From positions 1 to 40,750 of IMG/VR virus record IMGVR_UViG_3300028423_000317: a stretch of 40,750 nucleotides of DNA; one strand, written 5' to 3'. This stretch comes from a virus. Made by a program: the position numbers and the translations under genes. Under the pieces are notes generated by a model. It made no database searches. It had not been told where the DNA came from and saw only the letters and a program-made list of their open reading frames with translations. Below, piece after piece: positions 7,100-14,386 of this stretch; position 1 is the first letter of the stretch; each line of letters starts with the position of its first letter.

Positions 7100-7786
7100 T
7101 TAAGCAGCCAATCGTGTCGCTGTAGGTAACATTTCTGCACGCTGAAACCGTTGTACGACCGCCCCGTTATTCCACATTCTTTCACGGCTTGGTGTCCGAT
7201 TCATTTTAAATTTTCGGCAGTAATCTGGATCGATGTCTTTTATGTCCTGGAATGACTTTAACCGTTTTTCAGGAGTCTCAAATTGCCAATTAGCCCAGTA
7301 AATCCTAGCTCGGGTTTGGAACGTGATAAGCGAGGAACAGATATGTTTTCCGTTTACGCTAAGGTAGCTGTTTAACTGCTCCTGTGATTCTTTCCTCATC
7401 TTGACGTTTTCTAAGAAAAACTTAACGCCAGGATTGACTGACTTTATGTGATTGAGGATATCCAAATAGATATAAAAAAGCTTTGACTTATCGCCTTTCA
7501 GACCTTTAGCTTCCCTGATTTCTTTTTTAGCGTGACTAGCTCGCGCGATTGAAAAATCCTGACAAGGACTGCCTCCAATTAGCAAGTCAATGCTAGACCA
7601 ATTTATATCCCAATCACGCCACTGCTCAACGTCGCCCAGTTGAATTGTGTCAGGATAATTAGCTTGGGTTACTTTAATGGCTGCCGGCTTTATTTCCGAT
7701 GCGTAGTAGTTGTCAACGCTGATACCCGCACGTTCTAGCGCAACTTGGCCTGATGATATTCCGTCGAATAGTGATAATACGTTCAT
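7100..7786 (-). CDS. DNA cytosine-C5 methyltransferase, frameshifted
   Basis: The protein transfers a methyl group from S-adenosylmethionine to cytosine C5. Visible motifs are LFDGISSGQ (motif I, residues 6-14), GGSPCQDFS with the catalytic Cys (71-79), LENV (motif VI, 125-128) and QTRARIYW (motif VIII, 157-164). The ATG at 7786 is set by GGAGAGG. After EMLPTATRLAA the frame stops at 7100. One missing A near 7111 (CGATTGG for CGAATTGG) would continue it as TRIGCLTLKQDRCPNSG into the 6861-7067 frame, for a total near 308 residues. The truncated form lacks motif X, so it is probably inactive unless the deletion is an error. It likely protected phage DNA from host restriction. Confidence 0.85.
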   Translation of the reverse strand: MNVLSLFDGISSGQVALERAGISVDNYYASEIKPAAIKVTQANYPDTIQLGDVEQWRDWDINWSSIDLLIGGSPCQDFSIARASHAKKEIREAKGLKGDKSKLFYIYLDILNHIKSVNPGVKFFLENVKMRKESQEQLNSYLSVNGKHICSSLITFQTRARIYWANWQFETPEKRLKSFQDIKDIDPDYCRKFKMNRTPSRERMWNNGAVVQRFQRAEMLPTATRLAA

Positions 7787-7816: not shown

Positions 7817-7855
7817 GTTATAACACAGATTCTGGCGGTTACTGGTCTTACCAGT
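7817..7855 (-). promoter_or_regulatory. Operator palindrome upstream of methyltransferase unit
   Basis: ACTGGTAAGACCAGT (leftward; 7841-7855) overlaps the terminase stop codon. A -10-like TATAAC lies at 7817-7822 with only a poor -35 overlapping the palindrome. So the operator is certain as a sequence match but the promoter is weak. Confidence 0.65.
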
Positions 7856-9084
7856 TAAAAAGCAATCTTAACGGCGGAGGTGGTTTTGTGCTGAATGGGG
7901 AACAGCGAATGTATCTGATAGCCAAGCGCATCGGTAATATGGTCTAGCCCCAGTGACTTGTCAGGCTGACTTGTGCCTTCCTTATAGGTCATGCCGTCAA
8001 GCCCTTTTATCAGCTCTTTGCAGCGCGGATGAATAAACAATCTGCGCTCGCCGTCTGTATTGCACAGCATGGCTTGAACCTCATTTATACGGTCTGCTAC
8101 TGCAGGTGCTTTATTTGGTGCTAAAACTAAAAAGCCGTGCTGCTCAAGTATTGTGAAGTCAGTAACCCCGCCTGCAGCACTGGTTTTCCGCGCCTTTCCG
8201 CTGGGGTCTGGGTAAGCTCTGATTTTGTGGTTCGGGTATCGCTTCTTAATTTCTTGTGATAGCTCGGTCGTGTTTGAGTTTCTGATACACAGTTCATCTA
8301 CTATGTGTAACTGGTCAGATACTTTTACGGCAACGGAAGCGGTTATTGGATCGATATTAAAATCGACACCGATATGCAACTCTGAAACACTATCGATGGT
8401 AGCGATGTCTGCAGACACGTTTATATCTCTATCAAAATTCGAATAAACTCTATTTGATAGGGTTTCAAAACTAGCCAAGTACTCTTGCTTAAAGGTTCTC
8501 TCAGGAAGTTCCCTTCTAGCTGCCTCTATCTCTTCTCTAGTTACATTCCCCCCATCTGCAGTAGTGAACTGAAAAGACTCCCAGTCTGGTTCATCTTGAT
8601 TCCTGCCGTGCTCGTAAAGGTCTTTGAACCAGTTAAAACCGCTAGGCGATGAGATAAACATTACTGGCGCTAACTTGTCCGATGTCGCTGGCCTGATTAC
8701 GTCTGTCCATACCTCCCTAGCCATGAAGCTTGCCTCATCAAGACATACAGAGCTAAGGGAAACTCCGCGCAAGCTATCCCTGTTCTCCGCACCCTTTAAC
8801 TGAATAACCGCACCGTTTGCGAACTCGACTGATAAATCGGATTCGTTCTTGTGCTTGATATGTTCGATGAAAAGCTCTTTTAGTAGCCTCCACGCGATTT
8901 GCTTGGCCATAACGTAAGACGGCGCAACATAGTAGTGCAAGCCGCCTTTTGTCATTGCGTTATGAACAAGCCACGTGAGCGCAAGGTAAGACTTGCCAAA
9001 GCGGCGACCTGCAGACACAATCTTGAATCTGGCGGGGGATTTCCAGACTCTTGTTTGTGGTTTTGTCAGCTTAACCTTGCTCAT
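7855..9084 (-). CDS. terL: Terminase large subunit
   Basis: This is the ATPase/nuclease motor that cuts and packages phage DNA. The 409-residue protein has Walker A AGRRFGKS (25-32), Walker B SSVCLDEAS (111-119), a coupling segment MFISSPSGFNWF, and a C-terminal RNase H-like nuclease with HIGVDFNIDP and LGLDHITDALGY acidic residues. The ATG at 9084 (MSKVKL) has GAAGAGG five bases upstream and is preferred over the in-frame GTG at 9102. It overlaps the stop of the HNH gene (ATGA). It ends in the operator palindrome upstream of the methyltransferase. Confidence 0.95.
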   Translation of the reverse strand: MSKVKLTKPQTRVWKSPARFKIVSAGRRFGKSYLALTWLVHNAMTKGGLHYYVAPSYVMAKQIAWRLLKELFIEHIKHKNESDLSVEFANGAVIQLKGAENRDSLRGVSLSSVCLDEASFMAREVWTDVIRPATSDKLAPVMFISSPSGFNWFKDLYEHGRNQDEPDWESFQFTTADGGNVTREEIEAARRELPERTFKQEYLASFETLSNRVYSNFDRDINVSADIATIDSVSELHIGVDFNIDPITASVAVKVSDQLHIVDELCIRNSNTTELSQEIKKRYPNHKIRAYPDPSGKARKTSAAGGVTDFTILEQHGFLVLAPNKAPAVADRINEVQAMLCNTDGERRLFIHPRCKELIKGLDGMTYKEGTSQPDKSLGLDHITDALGYQIHSLFPIQHKTTSAVKIAF

Positions 9085-10130
9085 GCTGGCCTCTTCTTGC
9101 ACCTGTCAAAATGATATCTTACCATTCCGTTTGAAGTTGGTCTTCCTAGTTTGCCGCAATGTGGGCATTTAACAGGTTTTCTTTGCTCTTCCCTTTGCTT
9201 TATGAATTCAGAAACCTCTTTTGGCTCTTTAGATTTGTCTGCATAACCCATAAATATCCATTTTCTAGTGCCGCTCCTGCTCAGATTTACGCACTCAATG
9301 ACTCCTGACTTTGACATTCCATGCTCTGTATAAGCCTCATAACAGGTACATTCTAACCACTTGTCTTTTTCATACTTATGTTTCCATAAGTAAACCTCTG
9401 GTCTATACCTGCCGTTTGCATCGCCTTTTACCTTGTCGTTTCCGTAGTTGGGGTTGTTTTTCCCTGTGATATCAGACTGACTTCGCTTTATTCCTAAATT
9501 TAAACCTCTGTAATACTGGCCTAGCAGTTTTAACTCTTCTGTCTGCTTCCTAAAATACAACTTTTTAGTCTTGTCGAAAAAACAGTTAAACCCAACAGCT
9601 TTGTGTATTGTAGATATCAGGCTCCTGTCAATAGCGGTATCAAATGGCTTGTAATTCCTCACCATAGATATAACCCAACCGAAATGCTCCCCAAAGTCGT
9701 ACCCAAAAAGAGGGTTTTCCTCACCTTTTGTTATTGGTCTATTTTTCTTGATTTTTGCTAGAGTTTCAGGCGTATGGCGCATCCCAAAAAAAGGATTTCC
9801 TTCTCCTGAAAAATCCTTCCTCATCCACTCGATATGCCTCAATCTAGCCGCCTCATACAATCTGCCTTCTGAGGCATATCCTTTGGCACTATTTGTCCCG
9901 CTTTTTGACATAAAATAGACGGGAGTCCAAAGTCTACCCCCGTAAATCTTGGCTAGAAGGTAGTGTGCTATGAAGTGCTCTCTTGCGGTCAATCTTACTA
10001 GATTGGATTTGTCGTTGCTGCCACCTAGACAGCGAGGTTTTATGTGGTGAGTTTCAAAATAGGTGGGCTTTTTAAGTATCTCGTCCTGACGCTTTTTTAT
10101 TAGCTGGTCATAAATTCTTTGGTAATTCAT
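9081..10130 (-). CDS. HNH homing endonuclease with NUMOD3-type repeats
   Basis: The 349-residue protein is a likely free-standing homing endonuclease. It has an HNH motif near the N-terminus (ETHHIKPRCLGGSNDKSNLVRLTAREHFIAHYLL, residues 26-59). DNA-binding NUMOD3-like repeats follow: GEGNPFFGMRHTPETLAKIKK, KGEENPLFGYDFG, TGKNNPNYG. A C-terminal zinc-finger-like CPHCGKLGR...HFDRC closes it. The ATG at 10130 follows GAGG at 8 nt. It is inserted between the terminase small and large genes, a common site for such elements. The base composition looks more AT-rich than the terminase genes, a sign of separate origin. Confidence 0.88.
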   Translation of the reverse strand: MNYQRIYDQLIKKRQDEILKKPTYFETHHIKPRCLGGSNDKSNLVRLTAREHFIAHYLLAKIYGGRLWTPVYFMSKSGTNSAKGYASEGRLYEAARLRHIEWMRKDFSGEGNPFFGMRHTPETLAKIKKNRPITKGEENPLFGYDFGEHFGWVISMVRNYKPFDTAIDRSLISTIHKAVGFNCFFDKTKKLYFRKQTEELKLLGQYYRGLNLGIKRSQSDITGKNNPNYGNDKVKGDANGRYRPEVYLWKHKYEKDKWLECTCYEAYTEHGMSKSGVIECVNLSRSGTRKWIFMGYADKSKEPKEVSEFIKQREEQRKPVKCPHCGKLGRPTSNGMVRYHFDRCKKRPA

Positions 10131-10162
10131 GTTTATTGCCTCGGTCAAAAGGTAGTCATTTT

Positions 10163-10219
10163 GGGAGGTGGCTACCGAGTGACTAGCTCGGCACGGCTTG
10201 CAAACCGCTGCCACCTTTT
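10163..10219. other. Cloverleaf-like structured element in front of HNH gene
   Basis: An outer stem AGGTGGC/GCCACCT (10066-equivalent arms at 10166-10172 and 10210-10216) encloses two hairpins. The first is a perfect CCGAG/CTCGG stem (10175-10179, 10187-10191) with a 7-nt loop. The second is CGG/CCG around a loop containing TTGCAA. The layout recalls a tRNA without its T arm, with a GCA-type anticodon. It also sits where the HNH mRNA leader should be. The strand and role are undecided. Confidence 0.45.
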
Positions 10220-10221
10220 AA

Positions 10222-10250
10222 ATTATACTATTCTTCGTCGTCCTCGTCCA
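10222..10250 (-). promoter_or_regulatory. Possible HNH promoter inside small terminase gene end
   Basis: A perfect -10 TATAAT (leftward, 10222-10227) has a weak -35 TGGACG 17 bp upstream. Transcripts would start just before the structured element and the HNH gene. The weak -35 keeps this tentative. Confidence 0.35.
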
Positions 10251-10602
10251 GTACAACAACCAATGGTTGCATTGTTCCGTCTTGCGAAGAATGGTTTAGG
10301 TCTTGCTTGTCTGAATAGCCGTGCTTGGTTAACATCATCTTAGTTACTGCAGGGTTGAAGCCCCCGACAAGACCACCGTTGATTAACTTTCGCTCTTGGT
10401 ATTCCGCTACGCGCGTAAAAATGTCCGAAAACTCTGGCTTATCTTCATCTTTCGACCACTCATAAAGCGTGCTTCTGGCAATTCCAATCTCGCAAGCCAT
10501 GCCTGCAACTGTTGGCACAGCGTCGCCGTATTGCTCGTGATTGTCGACATAGTCTGCAGCTTTGGCTAGGACTTCATCGTTGTAATCTGTAGGACGCGCC
10601 AC
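10228..10602 (-). CDS. terS: Terminase small subunit
   Basis: The small terminase recognises the packaging site and regulates the large subunit. The 124-residue protein reads MARPTDYNDEVLAKAADYVDNHEQYGDAVPTVAGMACEIGIARSTLYEWSKD, a helix-turn-helix typical of the gp3-like packaging proteins. It continues with a helical oligomerisation region (FTRVAEYQERKLINGGLVGGFNPAVTKMMLTKHGYSDKQ) and an acidic tail DEDDEE that likely contacts the large subunit. The start is GTG at 10602, set by GAGGTGA. A promoter lies at 10650-10678. It is separated from the large terminase only by the HNH gene. Confidence 0.88.
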   Translation of the reverse strand: MARPTDYNDEVLAKAADYVDNHEQYGDAVPTVAGMACEIGIARSTLYEWSKDEDKPEFSDIFTRVAEYQERKLINGGLVGGFNPAVTKMMLTKHGYSDKQDLNHSSQDGTMQPLVVVLDEDDEE

Positions 10603-11323: not shown

Positions 11324-11741
11324 TGTGTTTTCTCCAGTTTTGTTGATTCGGTTTTAGCATAGCAAACTTTCCCGCGGTAAGTGGTCGGATGAGTTGGCGG
11401 AAACTAAGGAAACTAAAAACTAGCCGATCTTTATAATAAGCCTGTCTAAGGCTCTCACGCGCGTATATGCGCCCTTAAACATTAAAATTCTATACTTTAT
11501 AGAAATGTTAGTTTCCTTAGTTCCCATTCGGCTAAAATCCTTTTATTCTGCGCCCTGTGGCGGAAACTAAGATTGGAACTAAGGTTTTTTGGTTAGTTTC
11601 CCTAGTTTCCAGAGGCCGGTTTTGCGGAAACTAGGGAAACTAGGGAAACTAACCGAAAACGCCTGTTAGTTTCCGCAAAATCTCTTAAAAGGCTACTTTT
11701 TAAAAATGTTCGTTTTCTTAGTTTCCCTAGTTTCCACGCAC
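11324..11741. other. Iteron region, candidate replication origin
   Basis: No gene lies between 11324 and 11808. The stretch holds twelve exact copies of the 8-mer GGAAACTA, in both orientations (see the repeat entry), an AT-rich segment (about 11470-11508) and a short palindrome GCGCGTATATGCGC. It directly follows the primase-helicase gene. This is the usual make-up of an iteron origin recognised by a phage replication protein. Confidence 0.6.
11399..11735. repeat. GGAAACTA iteron array with nested inverted repeats
   Basis: Forward copies begin at 11399, 11408, 11562, 11626, 11635 and 11644; reverse copies (TAGTTTCC) begin at 11509, 11594, 11603, 11667, 11719 and 11728. Tandem copies are spaced exactly 9 bp apart. 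Degenerate copies lie at 11518 and 11575. Two larger perfect inverted repeats are built from them: 11591-11610 with 11635-11654 (20 bp) and 11620-11633 with 11667-11680 (14 bp). Confidence 0.9.
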
Positions 11742-11786
11742 AAAAAAACCTCGCAAAGGACGGATTTAATGTCCACCTTTGCGAGG
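11742..11786 (-). terminator. Strong terminator after primase-helicase gene
   Basis: Read leftwards, a perfect 11-bp stem CCTCGCAAAGG/CCTTTGCGAGG (11749-11759 and 11776-11786) is followed by seven T. It closes the repressor-primase unit just before the iterons. Confidence 0.9.
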
Positions 11787-11808
11787 TCGATGTCCGTCTT
11801 CTTGTTGT

Positions 11809-14205
11809 CTAAAACGGCACAGGTTTAACCCAACCCCGTTGCTTACCGAAGCGGCGACCAAACTTGATTGCGCTCGCCGCACGTTCCCAGCCTTCCATGT
11901 TATTCATAATAGCGGCTATGCGGTTGCTATCCATGCGGCGCATATCACGTCCGCGCATACCAAGACAATCTTCCCATATCTCAGCACAGCAAACGCGCTC
12001 GCGCTCGTCATCTTCGCCGATTGCGTCAAAGTCAGGGTTAGGGTCATAGCGCCCTGCATTTGCTGATTGCTGCAGCCAAGACTCGATAACGCCTTGCCAC
12101 GGGTCGGATTCCTTTTTGTCCTCTTGAAGTTCCCGGGCAATGCTCTGCGCTTCTTTTGACAGTGTCGTCTGTTCATCTTCGATCAGATAAAGCATATACG
12201 CTTCAGCCCATACTTGGTCGACTTCACGCTCAAGACGGCTAAAGTCGATGGTTTCGCCATAAGGTAGGTTGGCATCAATAGGCCACCAGCGGCGGTTCCC
12301 TGTGCTGTCCTTGAGATATTCGCTCTGGTTGGTTGTACCCATCAGAACGAACTGGCGGAAATACTCCACAGGGTGTCGGGCATACGCCAAACGAACGGTT
12401 GTTGAACGGCTGGAAATAAACGACTTTTGCATTTCTAAATCATGTCTGTTGGTTGCGCCCATTTCATTTATTTCAACAATAAGTCGTCCTTGTGTTTCTT
12501 CAACGGCAACCTTCGGCTCAAAACTGGTCAGTTCCCCGTACCATTTGCCGCGAGCTAGTGTTTCAATGAAGGTGGTCTTCCCGATGCCTTGAGCACCACC
12601 AATGACAGGCACGTTGTCGAATTTGTAACCGGGGTTAAACACACGGTTAACTGCAGCGACCAGACAACACTTGGCGGCTTCGCGCGTGTAAGCGTTGTCG
12701 TCGCATTTAAAGTAATCAATAAAAAGTGTGGCAAGTCGCTGTTGCCCGTCCCACTCCAGACTTTCCAGATACTCCTGCACAGGGTGGAAAGCGTTCTTAT
12801 TTGCCCGGTCTTCAATGGCTTGTTCAATTTTCGTTTCCGGGAAGTCGACATTGTACTTTCGACCAATATGCTTGCGCACTTTGTAGCTGTGGGCGCTGTC
12901 CCACATCTTTCCAGTCCGGGCAATCTCAACACGACCAGAGAACAAGTTGAACATCGGTATGCCGTTTATTTTCTCATCGTTGTTGAGTATAATCGTCGCG
13001 TTCAGGAAAGTGGATTTTATTGCGCCGTTTTCCCCGACCTGCAGAGTTGCCATCCAGTTGTCTTGGGCTGGCTCTGCACCATCGGTTTCAATGTCGTCAA
13101 AGTCATCGGTTACGTCTGCGTCATCGTCAATCCGCAGACTGACCAGCTCGCCTTTTATCTGTTTATTTTCTTGCGCCCATTCTTTCATTGCCGTGTACGA
13201 CGGCAAACGATGAACAGGTGTCCCGGTCTTGGCCTCGTCGTCAAGGTGTCCGAACTTGTGAATGCGCAATAAGTCAAAGGCATTACAGGTCTGTTTACCT
13301 GCAGGGTCTGTGTCGTGGTTGCTGTATGCGTGGTAATCGTCGTAAACGACCAAGCCGTTGGTTGTCGAGCCTTCAAGAAATGTATAGCGGTCGTCTTTTT
13401 CGCGGCGGTAAACGTCCTGCAACTCTTCTTCAATGGCCTTGTGAATGTCGAAAACTCGACACACTGCGCCGACAAGGTTTTTCTTTTCTCGTGGATCTCC
13501 CAGCTTCGCCAATCGTTTCTTTAAGTCCCGTGTTTCACGGCTTGACTTCGGCCAGTTTGCCGCGTCCTGCCAGTCACCATCGTACAGCCCAAGCAACCAA
13601 CTCACAGGCGCAAAAGGTTTGTCATTGTGCTTGAAATAAAAAGGCGCGTCGCTGGATGATGACGGCCAATACATAAGACGATTAACGTCATAGGTGGTGT
13701 CGTCAAAATAGTCGATGCCAACAATGTCCGCCAGTTTGCGCATTGCCGCCTGATATTCTTCGGGTAACATCGGACGGTCGGCAATGACCACCAAGCGATA
13801 GCGCGGGCGCGCTTCGGTGTGCTTGTGGGTGCTGTATATTGTGTAGTTGTAGTCGCTCAGTTCCCGGTGGACAGCCTTTAAAAAATGCTTGTCGGCAAAA
13901 TCTGCGTCAAGTGTCATTGCGCTACGGTTAGCGACGCTCTCTTTGTTACGTCGACCACCTTTGAGAGAGCCTGCAACAAAGCCGCCGACGTCCTTTATTG
14001 CGTCTTGCTCTGCCTTTGGCATTGCCATGTATTCGTCAATCGTTTCGGTGGTGCGAACAGTGTTCCCTAGCCTGTTGACAAAGCCCTCAACGGTCGTTGT
14101 CTTATTCGCCCACTTTGCTGATTCTCTGGTGTTCGCCGTTGCAATGTTTATCTCTTTATCAAAAGACAGGTTATCAACCTTCTGCTCTTCTTTATGCGAC
14201 ATCAT
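11809..14205 (-). CDS. VapE/D5-type primase-helicase
   Basis: This 798-residue protein is the likely replication initiator-helicase. The C-terminal half is a VapE-family superfamily 3 helicase: VQEYLESLEWDGQQRLATLFIDYF, Walker A GGAQGIGKTT (536-545), Walker B GRLIVEINEM (573-582), and sensor-like VLMGTTNQSEYLKDSTGNRRWWPI. The N-terminal part (SAMTLDADFAD...YTIYSTHKHTEARPRYRLVVIADRPM...YDVNRLMYWPS) matches archaeo-eukaryotic-type primase domains fused to such helicases. The ATG at 14205 follows GGAGG at 6 nt and overlaps the Cro-like gene by 14 nt. The iteron cluster just downstream is a natural candidate for its binding site; that link is inference. Confidence 0.88.
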   Translation of the reverse strand: MMSHKEEQKVDNLSFDKEINIATANTRESAKWANKTTTVEGFVNRLGNTVRTTETIDEYMAMPKAEQDAIKDVGGFVAGSLKGGRRNKESVANRSAMTLDADFADKHFLKAVHRELSDYNYTIYSTHKHTEARPRYRLVVIADRPMLPEEYQAAMRKLADIVGIDYFDDTTYDVNRLMYWPSSSSDAPFYFKHNDKPFAPVSWLLGLYDGDWQDAANWPKSSRETRDLKKRLAKLGDPREKKNLVGAVCRVFDIHKAIEEELQDVYRREKDDRYTFLEGSTTNGLVVYDDYHAYSNHDTDPAGKQTCNAFDLLRIHKFGHLDDEAKTGTPVHRLPSYTAMKEWAQENKQIKGELVSLRIDDDADVTDDFDDIETDGAEPAQDNWMATLQVGENGAIKSTFLNATIILNNDEKINGIPMFNLFSGRVEIARTGKMWDSAHSYKVRKHIGRKYNVDFPETKIEQAIEDRANKNAFHPVQEYLESLEWDGQQRLATLFIDYFKCDDNAYTREAAKCCLVAAVNRVFNPGYKFDNVPVIGGAQGIGKTTFIETLARGKWYGELTSFEPKVAVEETQGRLIVEINEMGATNRHDLEMQKSFISSRSTTVRLAYARHPVEYFRQFVLMGTTNQSEYLKDSTGNRRWWPIDANLPYGETIDFSRLEREVDQVWAEAYMLYLIEDEQTTLSKEAQSIARELQEDKKESDPWQGVIESWLQQSANAGRYDPNPDFDAIGEDDERERVCCAEIWEDCLGMRGRDMRRMDSNRIAAIMNNMEGWERAASAIKFGRRFGKQRGWVKPVPF

Positions 14206-14386
14206 TATCTGCCTCCATTATATCAACGGCGCGAAACTTACCGCCGGTCATGCGCTCGACCTGTATGGCTCTTAGTGGCGGCAAATTGCCTTTTGACTGC
14301 CAGTGGGTCACGGCAGAACGGTCAACGCCAAGGCGCTTTGCCATCTTGGACTTTGAACCGAACCACTCGATTATTTCTTCGATCAT
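14192..14386 (-). CDS. Cro/YdaS-like transcriptional regulator
   Basis: The 64-residue protein MIEEIIEWFGSKSKMAKRLGVDRSAVTHWQSKGNLPPLRAIQVERMTGGKFRAVDI is a small helix-turn-helix protein of the Cro/YdaS type. The recognition helix is in DRSAVTHWQSKG. It begins the leftward unit that leads into the primase-helicase and faces the rightward replication operon. So it probably represses one or both divergent promoters in the 14387-14467 gap. No partner repressor or lysogeny module is present. Confidence 0.8.
   Translation of the reverse strand: MIEEIIEWFGSKSKMAKRLGVDRSAVTHWQSKGNLPPLRAIQVERMTGGKFRAVDIMEADNDVA

Follow-up and report, generated by a model that had tools for sequence, protein, structure and literature searches.

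A probable replication origin behind the vapE helicase gene of a tailed phage, with counterparts across a helicase family

Introduction

Why would a phage carry a crowd of short repeats, on both strands, in a gene-free stretch directly behind its helicase gene? The question is raised by IMGVR_UViG_3300028423_000317, an IMG/VR virus record taken here at its full 40,750 bp (hereafter the window), for which the original prediction was of a replication origin lying beside its own helicase. There is precedent for such an arrangement: in PICIs the origin follows directly 3' of rep and has two iteron sets around an AT-rich region, and pri-rep-ori segments of these elements replicate autonomously (Fillol-Salom 2018, PMC6092414, where phage P4 is also mentioned). 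The C-terminal domain of the initiator takes on recognition in two known cases, namely SaPI Rep, where it recognises the downstream origin according to Ubeda 2007 as relayed by PMC7581432, and the SCCmec helicase Cch2, where it binds the iterons of that element (PMC7581432).

Results

A dense iteron array behind vapE

Exact copies of GGAAACTA number twelve in the entire 40,750-bp record, six per strand, and all of them fall at 11399-11735, with none elsewhere in the record; this confirms the predicted count and positions, against 0.99 copies expected by chance and a shuffle maximum of 4. Indeed, across 60 dinucleotide shuffles of the window, the densest 8-mer had at most 4 copies within 340 bp. 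The distal set consists of two copies on the plus strand, at 11399 and 11408 (11399-11415), and is followed by an AT-rich interval at 11416-11508, the presumed melting region, which holds a CGCGTATATGCGC element (11460-11472) containing CGCGTATA. The second set occupies 11509-11735, so that two iteron sets flank the AT-rich interval as in a PICI/SaPI-type rep-ori. This set comprises a minus-strand iteron at 11509-11516, a plus-strand iteron at 11562-11569, two minus-strand copies at 11594-11601 and 11603-11610, a plus-strand tandem of three with a period of 9 (11626-11651), a single minus-strand copy at 11667-11674 and, closest to vapE, two more on the minus strand at 11719-11726 and 11728-11735. 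To these we add two degenerate iterons that had been overlooked, GGGAACTA at 11518-11525 (minus strand, completing a pair at 11509-11525) and TGGAACTA at 11574-11581 (plus strand, completing a pair at 11562-11581).

The finer anatomy had also been read correctly. Five steps between adjacent same-strand copies are exactly 9 bp, and both perfect inverted repeats are present, one of 20 bp (11591-11610 / 11635-11654) and one of 14 bp (11620-11633 / 11667-11680). The neighbouring AT-rich segment is the interval described above, and the array does sit in a gene-free stretch past the vapE terminator: it begins 73 bp past the vapE stop codon, 11324-11778 contains no ORF of at least 60 aa, and a strong hairpin with a T run, read from the sequence and its predicted fold, forms the terminator on the minus strand at about 11742-11788. 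GC skew, which had been proposed as a check, lends no independent support to an origin at the array; its minimum lies near 14-15 kb, at divergent genes, and because it merely tracks gene direction it does not locate the origin.

The helicase and its C-terminal domain

The gene beside the array, vapE (11809-14205, minus strand), encodes a VapE-type initiator helicase of 798 aa (VapE-like_dom, E 3.7e-74; phrog_256, E 1.4e-259). Its closest solved homologue is PriRep1 of SaPI (PDB 7pds, annotated as 'similar to D. nodosus vapE'), to which it is homologous in both the helicase and the C-terminal domain: the profile match covers residues 365-796 (E 4.7e-125) and Foldseek recovers the same structure (E 5.9e-32, about 31% identity), making the initiator a SaPI-Rep-like helicase. 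PriRep1 lacks the N-terminal half (the 7pds chain is 477 aa), whereas the window VapE is full-length. The C-terminus was modelled by AlphaFold2 as a winged helix (pLDDT 88 in the full-length model, 84 alone), and its best structural match by VIA-align is again PriRep1 (Z 10.0, rmsd 3.8 A over 94 residues; next match Z 6.1). These models and matches, together with a divergence that goes with iteron change (see below), mark residues 735-798 (11812-12003, minus strand) as the presumed iteron-binding domain. The original prediction had also raised a ring-shaped helicase or a filament; since the 7pds structure comprises six chains together with dsDNA, a ring gains indirect support by analogy, but the filament gains none.

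Directly upstream of vapE lies a small HTH gene, both in the window (14192-14386, minus strand), where it is of Cro/YdaS type, and in the closest relative L060 (5820-6017, plus strand), and in both genomes this gene and vapE are divergent from the polymerase operon.

Iterons change sequence but stay in place

Close VapE proteins occur in only two viral contigs, L059 and L060 (77-78% identical, from the same metagenome), which provide just one closely related locus for comparison. Neither contains GGAAACTA, which the original prediction had named as grounds for rejecting an origin. While the 8-mer is indeed absent from these nearest relatives, GCAACCA repeats occupy the same place 3' of vapE, on both strands; two positions distinguish GAAACTA from GCAACCA, and the AT-rich stretch of the relatives aligns with that of the window (GCGTATATACGCGCG versus GCGCATATACGCGCG). 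As iterons change sequence between close relatives whilst staying in place, the absence of the 8-mer is unsuitable as a refutation. Between the window and its closest relative, VapE differs at 20% of residues 1-700 and at 37% of residues 735-798. A blastn search of the array region against the phage collection gave no match, and tandem 8-mer scans of the collection gave many matches, none with a comparable array density.

The same layout with other repeats is found in phages of Clostridioides, Enterococcus, Paenibacillus, Staphylococcus and Listeria, whose VapE proteins are 35-42% identical and whose iterons include TGTCAACA, TGGATACC, CTGCAACA and ATGCAACA. We surveyed 166 viral loci that encode a helicase of this family, drawn from four alignment-based viral-contig scans plus annotated phages and made non-redundant by shared VapE 4-mers. 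Short both-strand repeats concentrate just after vapE, and in 126 loci the 3' stretch outscores all remaining windows of that locus. With 300-bp windows, repeats exceed the threshold in 122/166 loci at offset -100 and in 119/166 at offset 0; farther than 300 bp from the vapE 3' end, most offsets give 0-3/166. The score remains below the 99th percentile in 66/166 loci, so their iterons are fewer, degenerate or elsewhere. This position relative to vapE is maintained in phages whose neighbouring genes are ordered differently.

Beneath the changing sequences lies a common frame: with the register fitted, the 105 best iterons share roughly TGGNAACA, at 4.65 bits versus 1.95-2.35 for column-permuted controls from the same seed. 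The CGCGTATA motif recurs in the AT-rich interval of 38/105 loci, compared with 1/105 controls. The 9-bp period, originally judged unusual, is genuine, but this phage is not alone in it: 9 bp is the commonest tandem spacing in the family (123/334), ahead of 12, 8 and 13 bp. The VapE-type plasmid and satellite replicons that we examined carry an array of the same kind; in a SaPI-like S. aureus circle (L501), for example, TGGGACA copies lie at the corresponding position, 8-9 bp from one another. An Apilactobacillus plasmid (L504) holds 14 exact ATGTCAC copies on both strands after a vapE-like gene (about 2270-2693), several of them 9-11 bp apart.

A recurrent array geometry

Measured from the vapE stop codon along vapE transcription, and marked > or < by orientation, the window sites fall at >198 >207 <227 <239 >283 >292 <393 <402, two of them degenerate, which gives steps of 9, 20, 12, 44, 9, 101 and 9; the 101-bp step crosses the AT-rich interval. 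Nearly identical steps are found in L194 (9, 20, 13, 44, 9, 101, 9) and L198 (9, 21, 12, 44, 9, 101, 9), both with iterons quite different from those of the window. The geometry recurs at 9 sites in L200 and at 8/9 in both L198 and L195, a correspondence reached by 0/200 randomised maps, and 18/81 loci match the window array at p <=0.01 (200 randomised maps per locus), including L060 with 6 sites.

C-terminal divergence accompanies iteron change

Among VapE pairs more than 78% identical, those with different iterons (n=32) have a C-terminal-to-core mismatch ratio of 1.81, and those sharing their iterons (n=14) one of 1.17 (p 0.002, with pairs that are not independent). Divergence of the VapE C-terminus thus accompanies iteron change. 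The clearest pair is L182/L426, with 94% identical proteins and different iterons, in which mismatch is 3-5% in the first 700 residues yet 25% over the C-terminal domain; the pair represents a natural exchange of presumed origin specificity. L182 is Enterococcus phage AE4_2 and L426 an IMG/VR relative. By comparison, the same-iteron pairs L280/L281 and L468/L475 show 2% mismatch in this domain. When protein identity is correlated with iteron distance in sliding windows, the signal is weak everywhere; column covariation, uncorrected for phylogeny, places the C-terminal domain at 5 of the top 7 columns against 0.56 expected, a modest and suggestive excess.

Discussion

We posit that the array is, very probably, the replication origin of this phage: the C-terminal domain of VapE would bind it, the AT-rich interval would melt and helicase hexamers would be loaded there. 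VapE would act as a self-loading initiator helicase whose C-terminal winged helix binds the GGAAACTA iterons; these would form two sets around the AT-rich, CGCGTATA-containing interval, oppositely oriented so as to position two VapE hexamers facing it, and melting of this interval would allow replication to start. Binding, melting, loading and origin activity are what we infer for this phage, and the comparison across the family - in position, spacing, frame and geometry - argues strongly for the origin that was predicted beside its helicase.

The likeness to the pri-rep-ori of SaPI and PICI elements is considerable: the origin lies directly 3' of the initiator helicase gene, with two iteron sets and an AT-rich middle, and some members also use VapE-type initiators. 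In the window the array is immediately 3' of the gene, and repeats are found there in 122/166 relatives. By this analogy the array would work like a PICI/SaPI rep-ori, whose tested anatomical features it shares. Nevertheless, the element is a phage that shares the PICI origin design, and is not itself a PICI: such a satellite has no virion structural gene set of its own, whereas this record carries genes for the large terminase subunit, the portal, the major head protein and a minor tail (tape-measure-like) protein. Unlike a satellite, this tailed phage brings along a DNA polymerase, an ssDNA-binding protein, an SNF2 helicase and a nuclease, and it further departs from SaPI/PICI in the extra N-terminal half of its VapE and in the orientation of vapE, divergent from the replication operon here and in L060. 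The alpha protein of phage P4 is likewise a primase-helicase of phage type, with short repeats on both strands as its recognition sites, although P4 uses two separate sites, ori and crr. The putative SCCmec origin of Cch2 similarly pairs an initiator helicase with short repeats downstream of its gene, but the protein belongs to the D5_N/Primase_Cterm family and there are only three 5-nt iterons (PMC7581432).

Could the repeats serve another purpose? Short both-strand repeats can be operators, through which a transcriptional repressor, or VapE itself, would regulate vapE or adjacent genes, and an HTH gene of Cro/YdaS type does lie upstream of vapE. We consider this improbable, however, as the array is behind the vapE terminator and 2.4 kb from the vapE start, contains no promoter-like site (two nearby matches are no more than shuffles give), and keeps its position relative to vapE where the neighbouring gene order differs. 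A terS-like gene (PF16677) about 0.8 kb away in the window would suit a pac or other terminase recognition site, but it is vapE, not terS, that related arrays follow; in L181, L182 and L183 the next genes past the array are helicase and VRR-NUC genes, while terS is far off or missing from the stretch, and we regard this role as exceedingly unlikely.

An RNA or cruciform hairpin element, acting in place of protein-binding iterons, would fit the strong folding of the single strand (z -7.2). Yet the arms follow from the same 8-mer being placed on both strands, and the arrays of relatives often do without long perfect arms whilst keeping the iteron spacing; Rfam matches are all far below gathering scores and nearly all to plant or animal miRNA families, which leaves a hairpin element very unlikely.

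This design recurs in many phages with VapE helicases and so provides a candidate origin for hundreds of phages, and it links phage and satellite replication systems. Perhaps - and we raise this tentatively, at somewhat less than even odds - VapE initiators and their iterons constitute a widespread, fast-switching recognition system, in which the frame (about TGGNAACA) and geometry are fixed and the variable positions are read by the C-terminal winged helix; origin specificity would then be predictable from sequence, and the system may evolve so as to prevent cross-replication among co-resident prophages and satellites. Pairs of the L182/L426 type, with helicases near-identical outside the C-terminal tail and different iterons, make the specificity residues directly testable. 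In the literature searched we found no papers joining 'virulence-associated protein E' and 'iterons'; within that literature, what is new is how widely these arrays occur among phages, the constancy of frame and geometry while iterons change, and the natural pairs linking iteron change to the C-terminal domain.

Two further genes of the window deserve mention. A C5 cytosine methyltransferase-like protein of 228 aa (7100-7786, minus strand) may be truncated, as its match covers just positions 1-119 of a 324-position profile. A NUMOD3 motif occurs in a 377-aa ORF (9081-10214, minus strand) that lies between the small terminase gene (10228-10602) and the large one (7855-9102), which suggests that a homing endonuclease has entered the packaging cluster.
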